Part shown: positions 3,561-13,189 of the stretch, one piece after another | Numbering within the stretch: the stretch's first letter is position 1 | Layout of the letters: each line of letters starts with the position of its first letter | Assembly (NCBI GenBank): GCA_902783785.1 | Contig: CACZSH010000057.1 | Location: 1-32,000, forward strand | Direction of reading: 5' to 3' | DNA: 32,000 nt | From: an uncultured bacterium | Lineage (GTDB): Bacteria; Cyanobacteriota; Vampirovibrionia; Gastranaerophilales; Gastranaerophilaceae | The notes under the pieces: generated by a model | Told to the model about the DNA's origin: nothing | Database searches by the model: none | What the model saw: only the letters and a program-made list of their open reading frames with translations | Program-made: the position numbers and the translations under genes

Positions 3561-3580
3561 TAACATATACGGGGGTGGAT

Positions 3581-3934
3581 TTGCAAGAACTAGTGTATTT
3601 ATTAGTATTTATCGTTTTATCAACATTATTTGCCGTTGCTTCGATTATTGCTGGTTTTGTTTTTGGTTATAAAAATGAATCATACGAAAAATCACAAATC
3701 TATGAGTGTGGTATGAAATTATTTTCTGATGCAAAGTTACGTTATGATGTTAAATATTTTAATTATGCACTTTTGTTTTTGCTGTTTGATACTCTATCAT
3801 TCTTTTTATTCCCTTTTGCTGTAACTTTTAATAAAATGCCTTTGTTTATCGTTGGTGAAGTTATTTTATTTACGGTTATTTTATTAGTAGGCTTACTATA
3901 TGCAATACAAAAACGTATGTTAGGAGATAATTGA
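3581..3934 (+). CDS. nuoA: NADH-quinone oxidoreductase subunit A
   Basis: Membrane subunit A of complex I, with three transmembrane helices. It packs beside NuoH at the quinone chamber. The loop motif YECG is present, and the FDxExxFLFPWA signature appears as [13 protein letters not shown]. The Asp is kept, but the normally conserved Glu two residues later is Leu (residue 72 counting from the TTG). I prefer the TTG at 3581 because GGGGGTGGA lies just upstream, and nuoC uses the same arrangement (G-run, short spacer, TTG). The GTG at 3575 sits inside that G-run and would leave no ribosome site. The stop overlaps the nuoB ATG (TGATG). First gene of an eleven-gene nuo operon. Confidence 0.9.
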
Positions 3935-4491
3935 TGAACGTTATTATCTCTTGTATTGATTATGTACTAAATTGGGGAAGAGCAAATTCACTTTGGCCTC
4001 TTACATTTGCAACTTCTTGTTGCGGTATTGAAATGATGCAAACTTCTGCTGCTGATTTTGACATAGCAAGATTTGGTTCAGAAGTATTTCGTGCATCTCC
4101 AAGACAAGCTGATTTATTAATTTGTGCTGGAACAATAACTCATAAGATGGCGCCTGCTTTATTGAGATTGTATCAGCAAATGCCTGAACCAAAGTATGTA
4201 ATTGCTATGGGTGCTTGTACTTGTGGCGGTGGAATGTTTACAGACTCTTACTCTGTCGTTAATGGCGTTGATAAAATTATTCCTGTTGATATTTATCTTC
4301 CAATGTGTCCGCCTAAACCGGAAGCTCTTTTAGATGCTATTATTAAACTACAAAATAATATTAAAAAAGAATCATTAATAGATAGACAAAAGTTTGTAAC
4401 TAAACATTGTTCATACCTAAAAGAAGAAGATGATATTTTAATAAAAGATAGCGGACTAAATATTATAAAATGGGGGGTAGAACTTGATTAA
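3934..4491 (+). CDS. nuoB: NADH-quinone oxidoreductase subunit B (N2 cluster)
   Basis: Peripheral-arm subunit that carries the last iron-sulfur cluster, N2, which passes electrons to quinone. Tandem cysteines at 29-30 (TSCCGIEMM), C95 (GACTCGGG) and C125 (PMCPPKPEA) are the four expected ligands. The core motifs [17 protein letters not shown] and [18 protein letters not shown] match the family well. Two departures are visible: the usual PGCPP is PMCPP, and there is an extra Cys at 97 beside the third ligand. The start is the ATG at 3934, which overlaps the nuoA stop and has AGGAG upstream. The TTG three bases earlier is not needed. The 185-residue length is normal. It overlaps nuoC by 8 bp. 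Confidence 0.97.
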
Positions 4492-4915
4492 TACGGATTT
4501 ATTAAAAGAATACTTCCCTGACGTTGTTGTTAACGAAGATTATATATTTGTTAGTAACAATGTATTTGAAATTCTTTCATTTTTAAAATCAAAAAATTAT
4601 GTTGATTTTGATATTTTATCCCAAATAATTGCAACAGATTATAGTGAATTTGTGCAATTAACTTATAGCTTGTATTCAACTGTAAATAACGAATTCTTAT
4701 ATATCATTACAAACGTCAATACTGAAGCTACCAGCGTAGTTAAATTATATAAGAGTGCATATTTTGATGAGTGCGAAATATACGATATGTTCGGCATAAA
4801 ATTTATTGGTAACGATAAACTGAAGAGATTATATATGCCTGAAAGTTGGAAAGGTCATCCTTTATTGAAATCATATAGTAATACTGATGAAAGGTTGGTG
4901 TGGAATAATGACTAA
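4484..4915 (+). CDS. nuoC: NADH-quinone oxidoreductase subunit C
   Basis: Peripheral-arm 30-kDa-type subunit, here a separate 143-residue protein and not fused to NuoD. The family signature is clear in the second half: [16 protein letters not shown], then [19 protein letters not shown]. The N-terminal half is short and poorly conserved, as is usual for compact NuoC proteins. The start is TTG at 4484, inside the end of nuoB. It is preceded by a run of six G and TAG, which serves as the ribosome site and parallels the nuoA start. The stop overlaps the nuoD start by 8 bp, so translation of C and D is probably coupled. Confidence 0.93.
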
Positions 4916-6017
4916 TCTTTTAAAAACTATGGAAATCAATTTGGGCCCTCAACATCCGTCAACACATGGCGTTTTGAGACTCGTACTGGAACTTGATGGA
5001 GAAGTAATTAAATCGTGTACTCCTATTGTTGGTTATCTTCATCGTGGTATTGAAAAAATGGCTGAATCTAGATCTTATCTTCAATATTTACCGATTGTTG
5101 ATAGAATTGATTATCTTGGTGGATTTTTTAATTCATATGCGTTTTGTGATTGTATTGAGCATATTGCAAATGTTGAAGTCCCTGAGAAAGCTCAATATAT
5201 CAGAGTGTTATGCATGGAACTTAATCGTATTGCATCACATTTACTGTGGTTGGGTACATTTATGTTGGATTTGGGTGCTTCTTCTCCGCTTTTTTACTGT
5301 TTTAGAGATAGAGAACGAATATTGCATATTTTTGAGGAGTTAACAGGTCAGAGAATGATGTATAACTATTTTACTTTTGGCGGAGTTAGATGGAATATAC
5401 CTGATGCAATTCTTGATTCAATCTCTGTATTTGTCGCAGATTTGCCAAATTGTATAAAAGATTATGAAAATATAATTACAAACAATCCAATATTTATCTC
5501 AAGATGTAAAAATAAAGGTGTACTTAGCAAGAAAACTGCTTTGCAGTACTCTATTACCGGTCCTAATTTGAGAGCATCAGGTGTTGCTTTGGATTTTAGA
5601 AAATCGAATCCATATCTTGTTTATGATAAATTAAATTTTGATATTGCTATCAATTCAGAATGTGATGCTCTTGCTAGATATAAAGTTAGAATTTCAGAAT
5701 TGTATTCTTCATTGGAAATTGTGAGACAATGTTTAGATTACATAAGACAATCAAATGATGAAGTTATTAATAAAACTTTGAAACCAGTAATTTTAAATAT
5801 TCCTGATGGAGAATACACATCATCAGTTGAAGCACCAAGAGGATTGACTTCATGTACTGTAAAAGCCGGAGGCAAAAATCCATATAGAGTAAAATGGAGA
5901 ACAGGCTCTTATTATGCAGTTCAATTACTTCCTGAACTTATAAATAATTCTGAAATTGCTGATGTTATGGCAATATTTGGGTCATTAGATGTTATTTTGC
6001 CGGAGGTTGATAAATAA
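4908..6017 (+). CDS. nuoD: NADH-quinone oxidoreductase subunit D (quinone-site subunit)
   Basis: The 49-kDa-type subunit that forms the quinone-binding site with NuoB. NLGPQHPSTHGVLR contains the quinone-binding His (H20), and DRIDYLGG contains the quinone-binding Tyr (Y69). Their spacing is identical to H38 and Y87 of Thermus Nqo4. D121 in MLDLGASSP is also kept. The next segment, normally ending FRIGG or IRIGG, reads MMYNYFTFGG: the His equivalent to Thermus H169 is Met151 and the Arg before the glycines is Thr156. I chose the ATG at 4908 because the protein then starts just before the conserved N-terminus and overlaps nuoC like the other junctions. An upstream in-frame ATG at 4887 lacks a ribosome site. 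Length is 369 residues. Confidence 0.96.
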   Translation: MTNLLKTMEINLGPQHPSTHGVLRLVLELDGEVIKSCTPIVGYLHRGIEKMAESRSYLQYLPIVDRIDYLGGFFNSYAFCDCIEHIANVEVPEKAQYIRVLCMELNRIASHLLWLGTFMLDLGASSPLFYCFRDRERILHIFEELTGQRMMYNYFTFGGVRWNIPDAILDSISVFVADLPNCIKDYENIITNNPIFISRCKNKGVLSKKTALQYSITGPNLRASGVALDFRKSNPYLVYDKLNFDIAINSECDALARYKVRISELYSSLEIVRQCLDYIRQSNDEVINKTLKPVILNIPDGEYTSSVEAPRGLTSCTVKAGGKNPYRVKWRTGSYYAVQLLPELINNSEIADVMAIFGSLDVILPEVDK

Positions 6018-7120
6018 TGAATTACTTATTTAGTCTTTTTATTAATTATTTGGCAAATTTTGGTGTCCCAAAGGAAATATCATATGTTGTATTTCCGATT
6101 TTACCTTTTTGCATAGTTGCTTGTGCGTTAATTTTTGTGGTTTTAATTCTTGTATTGGCAGAAAGAAAAATTTTAGCATTGTTTACACAAAGAAAAGGTC
6201 CTAATCGTGTCGGTGTTTGGGGTATTTTACAAACGATTGCGGATGCAATTAAGTTGCTTTGTAAAGAAAATATTGAACCAAATGTTACTGACGGTATATT
6301 TTTTACTCTTGCGCCACTTATTGCTTTTGTGCCGGTGATGGTATGCTGGGGTATAATCCCATTTAGCAATGAATTTGATTTTATATCTATTTCTACTTCT
6401 GCCTTATTATTTTCTGTTGTGGCAATTATGCCTGTTATTGGTATCTTGCTTGCAGGCTATTCAAGTAATAATAAGTTTTCATTGATAGGTTCGGTTAGGG
6501 CAGTTGCTCAAATTGTTTCATACGAACTACCTATTATATTTGTTATTTTATCAGTTTGTATCTTAGCTTCATCTCTTAATATTAAAGATATAATTCTAGC
6601 TCAAGTATCTGTTTATAAGATGTTTGGCTGGTATATATTCCCTTGTTTTTTAGGTTTTGTAATTATGTTTGTTTCTTCATTGGCCGAATTAAATCGATGT
6701 CCATTTGATTTACCAGAGGCAGAAAGTGAATTGGTTGCAGGATACAATACTGAGTATTCTGGAATGCGATTTGCATTATTTTTTCTTGGTGAATATGCAA
6801 TGTTATTTGCTTCTTCTGCATTTATTGCGGCACTGTTTTTAGGTGGATTCATATCACCATTTGGTTTTTATTTATCTGAAAAACTTTTTGCTAATAACAT
6901 TTTGATACAAATTTTTATTTATTTTGAACAAGCTATATGGTTTTTTCTAAAAACATTTATTGTCGTATTTTTGATTATGTGGGTAAGAGCTGTGCTCCCA
7001 AGATTAAAATCTTCTGATTTACTTAAATTTAGTTGGAAATTTTTATTACCTCTTTCTATACTGAATTTTATTTATATCTGTATATTTAAATATGTTGTTC
7101 TTGTCGGAGGTATAAAATAA
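6017..7120 (+). CDS. nuoH: NADH-quinone oxidoreductase subunit H
   Basis: Heel subunit of the membrane arm that links the quinone chamber to the proton channels. It has 367 residues with about eight transmembrane helices. Family signatures are LAERKILALFTQRKGPNRVG (residues about 47-66), the acidic loop FDLPEAESELVAGYNTEYSG, QIVSYELPI and FLGEYA. These hold the conserved glutamates of the E-channel. GGAGGT lies 8 bp before the ATG. The stop overlaps the nuoI ATG by one base. Unlike NuoA, nothing conserved appears to be missing here. Confidence 0.97.
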   Translation: MNYLFSLFINYLANFGVPKEISYVVFPILPFCIVACALIFVVLILVLAERKILALFTQRKGPNRVGVWGILQTIADAIKLLCKENIEPNVTDGIFFTLAPLIAFVPVMVCWGIIPFSNEFDFISISTSALLFSVVAIMPVIGILLAGYSSNNKFSLIGSVRAVAQIVSYELPIIFVILSVCILASSLNIKDIILAQVSVYKMFGWYIFPCFLGFVIMFVSSLAELNRCPFDLPEAESELVAGYNTEYSGMRFALFFLGEYAMLFASSAFIAALFLGGFISPFGFYLSEKLFANNILIQIFIYFEQAIWFFLKTFIVVFLIMWVRAVLPRLKSSDLLKFSWKFLLPLSILNFIYICIFKYVVLVGGIK

Positions 7121-7515
7121 TGTTAAAACAAATTTATAACTCAATATTATCTCTTGTTATTGGACATTTAACAGTATTTAAACACTCTTTTAAAAAACGC
7201 GTTACTCTTGAATATCCTGAAATAAAACCATATTTAAATAATAAATTTAGGGGAAAACATGAGTTTGATATCTCAAAATGTAAAGCATGTGGAATGTGTC
7301 AAAAAGTTTGTCCTGCAAATGCAATTGATATTATAAAAGATGAAAACGGTCTTTCAGAATATAATATTGATTATAGTAAATGTATATTCTGCGGTAATTG
7401 TTATTATTATTGCAACTTCAAAGCAATTAAACCTAGTAATCAATTTGAACTTGCCACTTCTGATAAAAAATCACTAAAAGTTACTTATAAAAAATTGGAG
7501 AATACGAATGAATAG
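7120..7515 (+). CDS. nuoI: NADH-quinone oxidoreductase subunit I (two 4Fe-4S clusters)
   Basis: Ferredoxin-like subunit that carries clusters N6a and N6b and delivers electrons to NuoB. Two complete CxxCxxCxxxC motifs are present: CKACGMCQKVCP and CIFCGNCYYYCN. In the second, the Pro that normally follows the fourth Cys is Asn. The N-terminal VTLEYPEIKP and NKFRGKHEF segments are typical of the family. At 131 residues it is a compact form. GGAGGT precedes the ATG. With no NuoE, F or G in the cluster, this subunit is probably where an external donor such as ferredoxin enters, as proposed for cyanobacterial and archaeal 11-subunit complexes. Confidence 0.95.
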   Translation: MLKQIYNSILSLVIGHLTVFKHSFKKRVTLEYPEIKPYLNNKFRGKHEFDISKCKACGMCQKVCPANAIDIIKDENGLSEYNIDYSKCIFCGNCYYYCNFKAIKPSNQFELATSDKKSLKVTYKKLENTNE

Positions 7516-8053
7516 TGCCGAAATATTGACAAGTGTTATATTTTATTTATGTTCTGCAGTTATAATTTTAAGTGCACTATTGACGATTTTATCAAAAAGA
7601 ATTATGTATTCTTTGATTTTTGCTATTATTGTATTTTTTGCAGTAGGTTTCATTTTTATGCTTTTAAATGCAGAATATAATGCTATAATTCAATTTGCTG
7701 TATATGGAGTTGCTATACCTATTTTGATTGCTTTTGCCCTTATGTTTACTTCATATAAAACCGATAAGAGTATATATTTGGCATTTTCTGCTCGTCTTAT
7801 TTTGACACTAATATCGGCAATTTTATTTGTATTGACTTTATTCAATATATTGCTTATATCGTCATCTGTTGTTGATTGGTTATTCACTTCTCAATCATCG
7901 TTAATATTGAATAAATACGAAATGTTTAATTCTATTTCAAATGGTTTATATATAAAATCTTTCTTTGCCTTGGAATTGATTGCATTTTTAGTTTTTGTTA
8001 TTATTGTTGGTTTTTCTTCACTTACGTTATTTAAGGGGAAACGAAATGGCTAA
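7508..8053 (+). CDS. nuoJ: NADH-quinone oxidoreductase subunit J
   Basis: A 181-residue membrane subunit with about five transmembrane helices. It sits between NuoA/H and NuoK and contains the helix whose pi-bulge transmits the coupling signal. The segment AVYGVAIPILIAFALMF corresponds to the conserved third helix. Identification rests on this segment, the length and the position between nuoI and nuoK. GGAG is found upstream of the ATG at 7508, which lies inside the end of nuoI. The stop overlaps nuoK by 8 bp. Confidence 0.9.
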   Translation: MNSAEILTSVIFYLCSAVIILSALLTILSKRIMYSLIFAIIVFFAVGFIFMLLNAEYNAIIQFAVYGVAIPILIAFALMFTSYKTDKSIYLAFSARLILTLISAILFVLTLFNILLISSSVVDWLFTSQSSLILNKYEMFNSISNGLYIKSFFALELIAFLVFVIIVGFSSLTLFKGKRNG

Positions 8054-8372
8054 TTTAGTATTTAATATCACTTTATTCCATTATTTAATTCTGGCTCTAA
8101 TACTCTTTACCATTGGCCTTTTAGGTGTAATTTTATCAAAAAATATAATTAAAGCTTTAATTTCTGCTGAATTTTTGATATCAGCTGTTAATATAAATTT
8201 TGTTGCTTTTGCTTTTTTTGTTGATAGTGCTAAATTGACTGGTTTTATTTTTTCAATTTTTACTATCGCAATTGGTGCTGTTGAACTAGCTATTGCTTTT
8301 GCTATTTTTTATCTGTTATTTAAAGAGAAAAAAACAGTTAATATTAATGATTATAAGGAGTTAAAAGGATAA
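8046..8372 (+). CDS. nuoK: NADH-quinone oxidoreductase subunit K
   Basis: A 108-residue membrane subunit with three transmembrane helices, related to MrpC/MnhC. Both buried glutamates needed for proton transfer are present: E42 in ALISAEFLISAVN and E80 in GAVELAIAFAI. The ATG at 8046 is preceded by AAGGGGAAACGAA and gives the normal family length. A longer frame starting at 7995 would add 17 residues encoded within nuoJ and is unlikely. Its last base is the first base of nuoL. Confidence 0.95.
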   Translation: MANLVFNITLFHYLILALILFTIGLLGVILSKNIIKALISAEFLISAVNINFVAFAFFVDSAKLTGFIFSIFTIAIGAVELAIAFAIFYLLFKEKKTVNINDYKELKG

Positions 8373-10231
8373 TGGAAATTTTTATACAAAATATTGGTTT
8401 AACTGTTTTATTTCCGCTTTGGTGTTCTGTTCTAATATTTCTTGGCAACTTTTTAAGTATACTAAAGTCAAAAAAAATTATACTTTCTCTAACTTTATTA
8501 TCTACTACATTTGGCTTAATTACATCGCTATTTACATTTTTTAATGCGATGGTTACTGAGAATTTTGTATTAGAAAATACATTTAAATTTTTATCAGTTA
8601 ATAATTTTATCCTTGAATTAGGGACATATATTGATTTAACATCATCATTTATGCTTTTAATTATTTTTACGGTTACGCTAGCAGTACAGATATATTCTTA
8701 TTCTTACATGTATAATGATGCAAGTTTTTCAAGATTTTTTGCTTTAATGAACTTTTTTACGTTTTCAATGAGTGCTCTAGTGCTTTCTCCTAATCTTTTT
8801 CAGATATATATATGTTGGGAATTGGTAGGAGTTTCAAGCTATCTTTTAATATCATTTTGGTTTCATAAAAATGCTGCATCTAATGCAGGTAAAAAAGCTT
8901 TCGTAATGAATAGAATCGGTGATATGTGCCTATTAGCAGGAATAATTTTATCTTCCATAATTATTTACAACTATTCAGGTCAAACTGATTTTGCAGATAT
9001 TCCGTTTAGTAGTATTGATAAAATTGCTGCTTATCTTTTTACGTATACATCTGAGCCAATTTTTATAATAATTTGTGTATTGTTAATTTTGGGTTCTATT
9101 GCAAAATCTGCACAATTTCCACTTCATACCTGGCTACCTGATGCAATGGAAGGCCCTACTCCTGTTAGTGCATTAATTCACTCTGCAACTATGGTAGCTG
9201 CCGGTGTATTTTTAATTGCAAGATTATTTCCTATATATTATCAATCAAGTTTTGTAATGAATTTTATAGTAATTATTGGTATAATTTCTGCACTAATTGG
9301 TGCATTTTGTGCAATAACTTGCAGGGACATTAAAAGAATTCTTGCTTACTCTACATCCTCTCAGCTAGGTATTATGTTTATTGCACTAGGTTCAGGAGCT
9401 TTAACTGCAAGTATGCTTTATTTAGCGACACATGCCTTTATAAAGTCCATGCTATTTTTGTGTGCAGGCCTAATTATGTCATTGTATCTTGGTAAAACTG
9501 ATATTGATAATTTTGGTGGACTAAAAAAACATATGAGTTTAATTGCATATATTTTTCTAATTGGTGCCTTTTCATTGAGTGGAATTCTATTTTCAGGGTT
9601 TGCATCTAAATCTTTAGTTTTCCATCATTTATTTGAAACGCACAGTTATTATATTATTTTATCACTGCTTGTTATTTCATTTATGACTGCATTTTACATT
9701 TTTAGAATGTATTTTCTTGTATTTGAAGGTAATTCCCATACGTCAGATAATAAAAAATATAGCCATGTTATGGTTGTTCCAATTCTTTTTCTGTGTGTAA
9801 TAACATTACTTTTAGGCTTTTTCTTACCCAAAATGTCAACATTAAAGTACGAACTTATTCCTGTTACTACTGAGCTGGTTGCAATTCTTTTAGCATATTT
9901 ATTTTACGTTAAATTTGTAAATATGCTCCCTAAATTGCCAATTTTATATAATTTGTCTTATAATAAGCTGTATATCGATAATTTCTACGATTTTATTACT
10001 CAAAAATTATATTTAGGGATTTGTAAAACAGCTAATTTTATTGATGACTATATTTTTGACGGAACTGTATTTGTAACTGTTTTTCTTACAAAATTAAATG
10101 CTTGGCTTAATTCAAAATTTCAAACAGGTAGTGTACAGTCTTACATTTCATATTCGTTTGCAATTTTAGCTTTAGTATTAACCGGTTTTTGTTTAGTTTA
10201 TTCTTTGGTAGCGTATTTTGCTGAGGTGTAG
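8372..10231 (+). CDS. nuoL: NADH-quinone oxidoreductase subunit L (antiporter-like)
   Basis: The distal proton-pumping subunit, 619 residues, with about 15 transmembrane helices and the C-terminal lateral helix. Key charged residues are in place: the Glu of YICWELVGVSSYLL (helix 5), the Lys of GSIAKSAQFPLHTWLPDAMEG (helix 7) and the conserved PVSALIHSATMVAAG and AYSTSSQLG segments. The C-terminal 100 residues (YNKLYIDNFYDF and on) match the NuoL-specific lateral arm, which separates it from NuoM and NuoN. The start ATG overlaps the nuoK stop. AAGGAG and AAGGAT lie just upstream. Confidence 0.97.
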   Translation: MEIFIQNIGLTVLFPLWCSVLIFLGNFLSILKSKKIILSLTLLSTTFGLITSLFTFFNAMVTENFVLENTFKFLSVNNFILELGTYIDLTSSFMLLIIFTVTLAVQIYSYSYMYNDASFSRFFALMNFFTFSMSALVLSPNLFQIYICWELVGVSSYLLISFWFHKNAASNAGKKAFVMNRIGDMCLLAGIILSSIIIYNYSGQTDFADIPFSSIDKIAAYLFTYTSEPIFIIICVLLILGSIAKSAQFPLHTWLPDAMEGPTPVSALIHSATMVAAGVFLIARLFPIYYQSSFVMNFIVIIGIISALIGAFCAITCRDIKRILAYSTSSQLGIMFIALGSGALTASMLYLATHAFIKSMLFLCAGLIMSLYLGKTDIDNFGGLKKHMSLIAYIFLIGAFSLSGILFSGFASKSLVFHHLFETHSYYIILSLLVISFMTAFYIFRMYFLVFEGNSHTSDNKKYSHVMVVPILFLCVITLLLGFFLPKMSTLKYELIPVTTELVAILLAYLFYVKFVNMLPKLPILYNLSYNKLYIDNFYDFITQKLYLGICKTANFIDDYIFDGTVFVTVFLTKLNAWLNSKFQTGSVQSYISYSFAILALVLTGFCLVYSLVAYFAEV

Positions 10232-10232
10232 T

Positions 10233-11744
10233 ATGGAATATTTATCATTAAATCTATTAATTTTCTCACCATTAATAATTGCAATATTATTTTTCTTGCC
10301 TATATTTAACACAAAAGAAGTTTTTATAAGAAGATTTACAAAAACATTTATGGGTGTACATTTTGTCTACGCACTATGTTTTTGGATATTTTATAATCCG
10401 GATGTAAACTTTTTTGATGAATTATTCTTGTTTGGGCAGAGTGGTGTTCAATCCCTAGGGATAAGATCGGCTTTTGCTATTGATGGATTATCCTTAGTAA
10501 TGGTTACTTTGACATCATTTTTATTTTTTATGTCTGCAATTTCAAGTAAAACTATTATTCGACACAGACAAAAGCTGTACTATGGATTACTTTTGCTTCT
10601 TGAAACCTCTGTTTTAGGAGTGTTTACTTCATCTGATATTTTCATATTTTTCTGTTTCTGGGAATTAGAACTTATACCAATGTACTTCCTGATAAGCTTA
10701 TGGGGTAGTGGTAGAGCACAAAAATCAGCAATGAAATTCCTACTTTATACATTCTTTGGAAGTTTGTTTTTATTACTTGGAATATTATTACTAAGTTACT
10801 ATAGTGATACTTTAAATTTTCAAATGAGTTCATTATTTGCAGATATAAATGTTGTTGACAAATTACCTATAAATATACAAATTTTAATTTCAATACTACT
10901 GATGATAGGTTTTTTTGTAAAACTCCCAATTATTCCACTTCATACTTGGCTTCCAAATGCACATTGTGATGCTCCAGCTCCTATCAGTATTTTACTTGCT
11001 GGATTATTACTAAAAATGGGTGCATATGGATTTATTAGATTTAATATTTTATTACTTCCTGATGCATTTAAGATTCTTGCTCCATTTTTAATTGTATTTG
11101 CAGTTATAAATATTATCCACGCAGGATTATGTGCTTACAATCAAGACGATATTAAAAAGATAATTGCCTACTCAAGTATTTCTAATATGGGTATTGTATT
11201 GCTTGGACTTTGTACAAATAACGAAGAAGGTGTTACTGGTGGTATTGTACATATGGTGTCTCATGGTTTGATATGTGCTGGATTGTTTATGATTGTAGGA
11301 ATTATTTATAATAGAACAAAAACTCGTGATATAAAAGCTATTTCTGGACTTGGCACAGTAATGCCTAATCTGATGGGTTTTACTGTTATGTTTTCTTTTG
11401 CTGCTATTGGTGTTCCTTTGCTGATTGGTTTTGTCGGAGAATTTTTAACATTTTGGGGCGCATTTTCTGTACAGTACGATTCTTATATATTTCTTCCAAC
11501 TGTAATAATATTTGCTATTTTTGTTTTGGTTATAAGTGCAGCATATATGTTTAAATTTGTACATAGAATATTTTTTGGTAGTATAGATAACTCTTGGGCA
11601 ATTTTGAAAGATTTGACAGCTCATGAATTTATAGTTTTATCTTCTATATTGTCTGTAATTGTATTTTTTGGTATAAATCCAATGAGTTTGATAGATGTTA
11701 TAAACCCAATTGTTGAAGTTATTGTTGAAAGTGCAGGGATATAA
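10233..11744 (+). CDS. nuoM: NADH-quinone oxidoreductase subunit M (antiporter-like)
   Basis: The middle proton-pumping subunit, 503 residues with about 14 transmembrane helices. Signatures are CFWELELIPMYFLISLWG (helix 5 Glu), FVKLPIIPLHTWLPNAH (helix 7 Lys), PAPISILLAGLLLKMGAYG (helix 8 Lys) and LIGFVGEFLTFWG (helix 12 Glu). All are intact, so proton translocation through this subunit should work. I chose the ATG at 10233 because GAGGTG sits 4 bp upstream. A TTG at 10218 would add five residues without a ribosome site. It starts 1 bp after nuoL and ends on the nuoN ATG. Confidence 0.97.
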   Translation: MEYLSLNLLIFSPLIIAILFFLPIFNTKEVFIRRFTKTFMGVHFVYALCFWIFYNPDVNFFDELFLFGQSGVQSLGIRSAFAIDGLSLVMVTLTSFLFFMSAISSKTIIRHRQKLYYGLLLLLETSVLGVFTSSDIFIFFCFWELELIPMYFLISLWGSGRAQKSAMKFLLYTFFGSLFLLLGILLLSYYSDTLNFQMSSLFADINVVDKLPINIQILISILLMIGFFVKLPIIPLHTWLPNAHCDAPAPISILLAGLLLKMGAYGFIRFNILLLPDAFKILAPFLIVFAVINIIHAGLCAYNQDDIKKIIAYSSISNMGIVLLGLCTNNEEGVTGGIVHMVSHGLICAGLFMIVGIIYNRTKTRDIKAISGLGTVMPNLMGFTVMFSFAAIGVPLLIGFVGEFLTFWGAFSVQYDSYIFLPTVIIFAIFVLVISAAYMFKFVHRIFFGSIDNSWAILKDLTAHEFIVLSSILSVIVFFGINPMSLIDVINPIVEVIVESAGI

Positions 11745-13189
11745 TGAATTCTACATATGATATTTTAAATATTTTTATTCCTAGTGTAATATTGTTAATT
11801 ACAATTGCAGTGCATACTGTTTTGTCACTGCTAAAGAATAATATTAATTACTACAAAATTTCTAAGTGGATATCTTTTTCAGGCTTAATATTATCACTTA
11901 TTTCTGTGTTTGATGTACAATTTGAACCAATCTATTTTGCATTTTCTGATGCAATTGTTTCGAATACATATACGATATTTATTCAGTCGGTTATACTGGT
12001 ATCTGCTATAATTTGTGTACTATTAACTAAAAAAATTATCGCTTCCAGACGAAACAATGCGTTTACATTTCATATTATATTTTTAAGTGCAGTTTTAGCA
12101 TCTATGATATTGGTTTCAGTTAATGACTATTTAACAATGTTTATATCTATGGAATTACTTAGTATTGCGTGCTTCTTTTTAATTAGTTTTAACAAGGGCT
12201 ATATTTCAAAAGAGGCATCGCTAAAATATATCTTTACTAATATCATTGCGTCATCTGTGTTTCTACTTGGAGTTTCGTATTTATACGGAATCACATCATC
12301 TGTAAATTTTTCAGAAATTAATGAATTTTATATGCAGCATACAGCCGAGTGGATGTATACAATTTCAATATTATTTATAGCCTCTGGTTTGTTGTTTAAA
12401 TTAGCAGTTTTTCCATTTGCTAATTGGATTTTAGATATTTACGAAGGTTCTTCGACCTCTGTTGCTGCATTTTTATCTGTTATTCCGAAAGTGGCTGTTT
12501 TGGGTTTGTTGTGCAGATTATTGGTATTTAATTTTAGCTATAGTTTTGAATTTCCTCTGATATTACTAATATTTGCTTCTATAACAGCAATATGGTCAAA
12601 TTTAATTGCAATCAGACAAAGAAATATTAAAAGATTATTGGCTGCTAGTTCATCTGCTAATGCATCATATATGCTTTTTGCTGCAAGTTTAGTGAGTGTA
12701 TATAATATTTCAACAGTTATATTTTATTTAATAACATATGTTTTAATGAATTTAGGTGTGTTTTCAGCCGTTATATTGCTTGAAAATTCTGCATTTTCCA
12801 ATAAATTGTATGAATTTAAAAATTTTGCATATACAAATCCATTATTTTGTTTTGCATTTCTTGTTTCATTGTTAGGACTTGCTGGTATACCGTTAACATC
12901 TGGTTTTATAGCAAAAATTTATTTACTCTCAGCTATTGCTAAGTCAGGCTTAATATTTATGCCATTTTTACTTGTCCTTGTAATAGCAATGGTAATAGCA
13001 ATGTTTTATTATGTTAGAATAGCAAAACTTATGTTCGAAAAAGACGAAACAAAGGATGAAAAATTTGTTATATATAAAACTGAATCGGCAAGCATTATTT
13101 TATATTTATGTGCAATATTTACAATTATAATTGGTATCATTCCTGATAAAATTATCGAAATATGTAAAATAATTGCATACAATATTTAG
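11744..13189 (+). CDS. nuoN: NADH-quinone oxidoreductase subunit N (antiporter-like)
   Basis: The third antiporter-like subunit, 481 residues with about 14 transmembrane helices. The helix 5 Glu (ISMELLSIACFFLISF), helix 7 Lys (LLFKLAVFPFANWILD), helix 8 Lys (VAAFLSVIPKVAVLG) and helix 12 Lys (GIPLTSGFIAKIYLLSA) are all present. Sequence identity is lower than for NuoL and NuoM, as is usual. It is the last gene of the operon. Its stop codon overlaps that of the convergent small exported gene, and no terminator hairpin fits between them. Confidence 0.95.
   Translation: MNSTYDILNIFIPSVILLITIAVHTVLSLLKNNINYYKISKWISFSGLILSLISVFDVQFEPIYFAFSDAIVSNTYTIFIQSVILVSAIICVLLTKKIIASRRNNAFTFHIIFLSAVLASMILVSVNDYLTMFISMELLSIACFFLISFNKGYISKEASLKYIFTNIIASSVFLLGVSYLYGITSSVNFSEINEFYMQHTAEWMYTISILFIASGLLFKLAVFPFANWILDIYEGSSTSVAAFLSVIPKVAVLGLLCRLLVFNFSYSFEFPLILLIFASITAIWSNLIAIRQRNIKRLLAASSSANASYMLFAASLVSVYNISTVIFYLITYVLMNLGVFSAVILLENSAFSNKLYEFKNFAYTNPLFCFAFLVSLLGLAGIPLTSGFIAKIYLLSAIAKSGLIFMPFLLVLVIAMVIAMFYYVRIAKLMFEKDETKDEKFVIYKTESASIILYLCAIFTIIIGIIPDKIIEICKIIAYNI

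Follow-up and report, generated by a model that had tools for sequence, protein, structure and literature searches.

The small subunit NuoA of complex I carries a pair of carboxylates in its second transmembrane helix, D79 and E81 in E. coli. The locus described here raises the question whether the second of these has really been lost from a gut bacterium of the Gastranaerophilaceae (Ca. Gastranaerophilales), a relative of the cyanobacteria, and how a complex I lacking it might work. The locus lies in the window, by which we mean the whole analyzed stretch of 32,000 nucleotides of contig CACZSH010000057.1.

The nuo operon of the window and its NuoA

The operon nuoABCDHIJKLMN occupies positions 3575–13189 with all genes on the + strand and all 11 reading frames open. 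It is a complete 11-subunit NDH-1-type gene set (NuoA, B, C, D, H, I, J, K, L, M, N) in a single operon. The genome (G000; 1.78 Mb in 122 contigs, 97% complete) has a single NuoA, whose gene is the first of the operon and starts with GTG. The individual features are:

3575–3934, + strand, nuoA (119 aa): open reading frame matching PF00507 (E 1.6e-23) and the NCBIfam NuoA models; without the Glu equivalent to E81
3788–3790, + strand, GAT: Asp72, aligned with E. coli NuoA D79, kept
3791–3793, + strand, ACT: Thr73 of NuoA, by codon reading
3794–3796, + strand, CTA: Leu74, which in the alignment replaces E. coli NuoA E81
3934–4491, + strand, nuoB: family models and alignment; four N2 cysteines kept
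4484–4915, + strand, nuoC: family models
4908–6017, + strand, nuoD: family models and alignment; equivalents of E. coli NuoCD H220, H224, R228, Y273 and D325 (quinone site) kept
6017–7120, + strand, nuoH: family models and alignment; E36, D63, E157, D213, E216, E218, E220, E228 and E241 (E. coli numbers) kept
7120–7515, + strand, nuoI: family models; two CxxCxxCxxxC motifs
7508–8053, + strand, nuoJ: family models and alignment; Y59 kept, Pro where E. coli has M64 (TM3)
8040–8372, + strand, nuoK: family models and alignment; E36 and E72 kept
8372–10231, + strand, nuoL: family models and alignment; E144, D178, K229, H254, H338, K342 and K399 kept, D400 replaced by Ser
10233–11744, + strand, nuoM: family models and alignment; E144, K234, K265, H348 and E407 kept, H322 replaced by Asn
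11744–13189, + strand, nuoN: open reading frame and alignment to E. coli NuoN; E133, K217, K247 and K395 kept

The first-pass annotation had stated that the Asp of the NuoA signature is kept and that the Glu has become Leu, and this reading was confirmed. The motif spans 3785–3817, inside the interval 3779–3829 of that annotation. Since the window's NuoA aligns with E. coli NuoA and PDB chains without gaps at the motif, the Glu has not been shifted to a nearby position. The five PDB chains compared here out of 32 matches, Nad3 chains and cyanobacterial NdhC among them, all have Glu at this site. G001, the other genome of the window's genus g1, has the motif FDVITFFLFPF with Ile at the site, and the Glu is therefore missing genus-wide, in both genomes available. 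A sequencing or assembly error, conceivable for a contig of a 122-contig assembly, has next to no chance of explaining the substitution, since the change from Glu to CTA takes at least two base changes and this independent second genome is also without the Glu, which refutes the error. We conclude that the substitution of E81 is real and genus-wide. At each of T73, L74, S75 and F76 the window has a residue other than that of the 17 family members with the Glu used for comparison.

A comparison of 42 key positions with E. coli gave three differences, namely NuoA E81 (Leu), NuoL D400 (Ser) and NuoM H322 (Asn), the last of these replacements being found also in many Glu-keeping relatives. The residues of the E-channel relay (NuoH E157, NuoA D79, NuoK E36/E72) are all present. 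At the NuoL D400 site there is Ser in the window and in g56, Ala in G001 and Asn in G157; the remaining redox-arm operons with a residue there have Glu or Asp.

The E-channel is gated by a pi/alpha switch in the third transmembrane helix of NuoJ. The Pro in this helix is found in g1, g15, g16, g20, g47, g52 and g56, and g17, g21, g26, g44, g48, g54 and the order members in the comparison lack it. As most carriers of the Pro keep the Glu, it is not tied to E81.

Complex I without NuoEFG is already known from Melainabacteria and Saganbacteria (PMC6349859). The complex of the window agrees with these and with the cyanobacterial NDH-1 core in its subunits (A–D and H–N, no NuoEFG in the operon) and in its N2, quinone-site and E-channel residues, and differs in the Leu at NuoA E81, the Ser at NuoL D400 and the Pro in NuoJ TM3. 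Judged from its genes, it belongs to a known type, complex I without N-module, in which the E81 substitution is new. The phylogeny of melainabacterial complex I has been worked out in a paper whose Results contain no residue analysis (PMC8235220), and incomplete complex I sets have been counted as a class (PMC12361115). Our literature searches, which missed most subscription papers, gave no report of E81 loss in Gastranaerophilales.

Occurrence of the glutamate among relatives

Within the family 383 genomes were searched; 92 have NuoA and all 92 copies were read at the E81 site. The Glu is kept in 75 and replaced in 17, the losses being distributed over g1 (2/2), g17 (1/2), g20 (1/7), g44 (2/2), g48 (2/4), g54 (2/2) and g56 (7/7), with no loss in the copies read from g15, g16, g21, g26, g45, g46, g47 and g52. 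Outside the family the Glu is present in 18 of 18 order members and in all 50 phylum copies sampled from elsewhere (the 30 best-scoring and 20 low-scoring ones among the matches). We take this distribution to be more than a chance effect. The annotation was therefore right in calling this Glu otherwise conserved. Because it is kept so widely the Glu must normally matter, and this counts against the explanation which we favor below.

D79 is no more constant than E81 in the phylum sample, where its site is Asp in 45 and Ser in 5 of the 50 copies; 3 of the 18 order members outside the family have Glu there. The phylum copies with Ser at the D79 site (L243, L246, L247, L249 and L252) keep E81 and are thus the mirror image of the window. 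We also note that a NuoA 54% identical to that of the window is encoded on L056 (ONVC01000021.1, titled uncultured Acinetobacter); it resembles the Gastranaerophilales copies and the entry is probably a mislabelled metagenome-assembled genome.

A tree was built from NuoB, D, H, M and N of 31 genomes with redox-arm operons, leaving NuoA out. On this tree, made by a quick method with SH-aLRT support only and with G159 as a long branch of unsure placement, the operons of the family that still hold redox-arm genes show at least five losses of E81 (g1, G098, g56, G196 and G159). Taken alone the loss in the window is a modest finding; it gains interest from being one of several that occurred independently.

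Loss of further residues and of the redox arm

In the three operons of g56 which were compared (L125, L126, L127) NuoA E81, NuoH E157 and NuoK E72 are gone together, and the N2 cysteines of NuoB and the quinone site of NuoD are kept. Different states are found side by side in g48. G153 has a complete complex with E81 kept and NuoK E72 replaced by His. G196 (L122, − strand) appears to be an intermediate: it has Gln at both NuoA sites and a NuoB with four cysteines, its NuoD has lost H220, H224 and Y273, its NuoH has lost E157, D213, E216, E220, E228 and E241, and what is left of its NuoI is 60 aa long and has no cluster motifs. The operon of G177 is without nuoB, C, D and I. G196 and G177 are sisters on the tree with G153 outside them.

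Operons of the composition nuoA-H-J-K-L-M-N, without B, C, D and I, are located on L038 (8304–15651, + strand, G113), L039 (813–8172, + strand, G088), L131 and L132 (− strand, G149 and G163) and L124 (− strand, G177), all with open frames. By genus these are g17 (G113, G088), g44 (G149, G163; their NuoA-like gene is a weakly scoring match of the Pfam model) and g48 (G177), and the membrane-only state takes three changes on the tree. The same gene set has been described from marine actinomycetes, where it is an additional copy (PMC6676996), whereas NuoB and NuoD models gave no match anywhere in G088, G149, G163 and G177 (genomes 89–99% complete). For G113 and G187 the same models match only longer hydrogenase-like relatives. 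The actinomycete operon also differs from the system of the window, which has all of nuoB, C, D and I and is hence not of the membrane-only class.

The dN/dS ratios of the membrane-only genes are 0.12–0.31 for the pair G149/G163 and 0.03–0.34 for G113/G088, with synonymous sites near saturation and worse so in g17; as the values stay below 0.35 in both pairs we regard these genes as being under selection. No replacement electron module was found by reading the open reading frames around the operons of G149, G163, G113, G177 and G187, the family library being applied only to the distant cluster of G113.

Across the family the constraint on the E-channel is weak: E81 alone is lost in g1 and G098, sister genera have lost more of the acids, and in some the redox arm has gone altogether. 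We tentatively suggest a staged and repeated dismantling in the Gastranaerophilaceae, in which E81 would be lost first, then other E-channel carboxylates, then quinone-site and iron–sulphur residues and finally the redox arm in its entirety. NuoAHJKLMN would remain as the cell's only complex I, an ion transporter that is free of redox chemistry and under selection. Against this sequence of events it has to be said that the lineages are few, that g21 and g26 have lost NuoK E72 too and yet keep E81, and that the test for co-loss comprises 4–5 independent pairs, too few for significance (p 0.25 for NuoH E157). Moreover the genomes are metagenome assemblies, in which absent genes can be binning gaps, but for B, C, D and I such gaps are unlikely because the operons are contiguous.

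Coupling in a complex without E81

The annotation had placed the Asp and the Glu at the entrance of the proton path next to the quinone chamber, and this placement could not be upheld. The E-channel is described as ending at ND3-D66 (PMC10396290), and ND3-Glu68 lies about 16 Å from ND1-E143 in the direction of the extended membrane domain (PMC12529768); because of these placements we locate D79/E81 at the far end of the E-channel. Mutation and simulation have identified the switch point on the path from E157(H) to E36(K) as D79(A), and the mutant D79N is left with about 20% of the activity while its H+/e− ratio does not change (PMC13324432; E81 does not occur in that text). The E. coli D79N variant and the NuoA of the window are alike in that one carboxylate of the pair is removed; in the variant, however, it is the gate that is removed, whereas in the window D79 stays and E81 is gone. 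The pair member of demonstrated weight is the one which is kept. Single E81 mutants of NuoA are reportedly mild and the D79/E81 double mutant severe.

In our opinion the 11-subunit complex of the window, lacking NuoEFG, probably still links the reduction of quinone to the pumping of ions in the absence of E81. Electrons would probably be delivered by ferredoxin or flavodoxin, and protons would be relayed from the quinone site through NuoH E157 and NuoA D79 to NuoK E36; with this relay intact, the way of a charge from the E-channel into the central axis would remain open. E81 would then be an auxiliary acid that is no longer needed in this lineage. The activity of the complex, its electron donor and the dispensability of E81 for pumping are what we infer here.

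With no NuoEFG in its operon the complex is not a 14-subunit NADH:quinone oxidoreductase. PF01512 has one match (NuoF-like) in the genome, a HydB-like subunit of 617 aa whose gene adjoins those of an [FeFe] hydrogenase and a NuoE-like protein. The locus which carries this only NuoF-like gene (L191, 1653–5812, − strand, contig C44 of G000) is HydABC-like with a hydrogenase of the group A6 type. A quinone substrate is plausible, since the genome has MenG/UbiE above the cut-off and a MenA-like prenyltransferase, the latter below its curated cut-off. MenG/UbiE is above the cut-off in 11 of 18 genomes (G000, G001, G098, G139, G149, G153, G159, G163, G196, G003 and G016) and not in G161, G234, G145, G106, G113, G088 and G177; UbiA matches in all 18, unspecifically. 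Two results on the quinone chain count against the favored explanation: cytochrome bd was found in none of the 18 genomes, that of the window included, and MqnA/MqnD of the futalosine pathway in two, both outside the family, and not in the window's genome. A link of E81 loss to quinone loss was considered and rejected, as G145 and G106 keep the Glu without MenG/UbiE above the cut-off.

The annotation had inferred altered coupling from the substitution. This is possible, but the gate proven by mutation is D79, which the window keeps. An altered or partial coupling without E81, with fewer ions per electron, slip or a different driving force, as a first stage toward the membrane-only complexes, appears to us rather unlikely. 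It would agree with the series G153, G196 and G177 inside one genus, with the loss of NuoH E157 three times and always in a lineage without E81, and with the replacement of the NuoL D400 equivalent, which among the redox-arm operons compared is confined to g1 and g56 apart from the Asn in G157. The sign test for co-loss is, however, underpowered, and the window retains D79, E157, both Glu of NuoK and every other E-channel acid. The replacement of D400 in g1 could still mean that the pump is changing as a whole, and this speaks against unaltered coupling.

It is quite improbable that the operon is decaying and the substitution functionless. Other family lineages are without parts or all of complex I, but in the window the 11 frames are open and the motifs kept, and the operon must be under selection because dN/dS against G001 is 0.07–0.22 over NuoA, B, D, H, J, K, L and M (dS 0.8–1.8, near saturation).

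Even less probable is that an acid elsewhere has assumed the role of E81. The annotation had suggested NuoH or NuoJ for this, but no new acid was found in a helix adjoining NuoA TM2. Our search covered NuoA, H, J, K and N and gave none in a suitable helix of the first four, in which the only acids new to the window are NuoA D2 and D118 (at the termini), NuoH E20 (N-terminal) and NuoJ D123. D123, which is Glu in G001 and thus new to the genus, would be the candidate, but it falls in a stretch missing from E. coli NuoJ. Furthermore, G098 has likewise lost the Glu without a new acid in NuoA, H or K. Those polar changes in A, H, J and K which are specific to g1 were listed as well, from alignments with some trimmed rows, and contained nothing convincing.

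We therefore return to a complex that probably pumps without E81. If the staged loss outlined above is true, E81 would be what the E-channel can most readily do without, and the complexes of this family would be a natural dissection of residues for redox coupling and residues for ion transport. The way in which the E-channel links quinone chemistry to pumping is a matter of continuing debate. The complexes which lack E81 and keep D79, those without E157 and NuoK E72 in addition and those without NuoB and NuoD form a ready-made mutational series, which would show the carboxylates that coupling needs and whether the membrane arm works alone.
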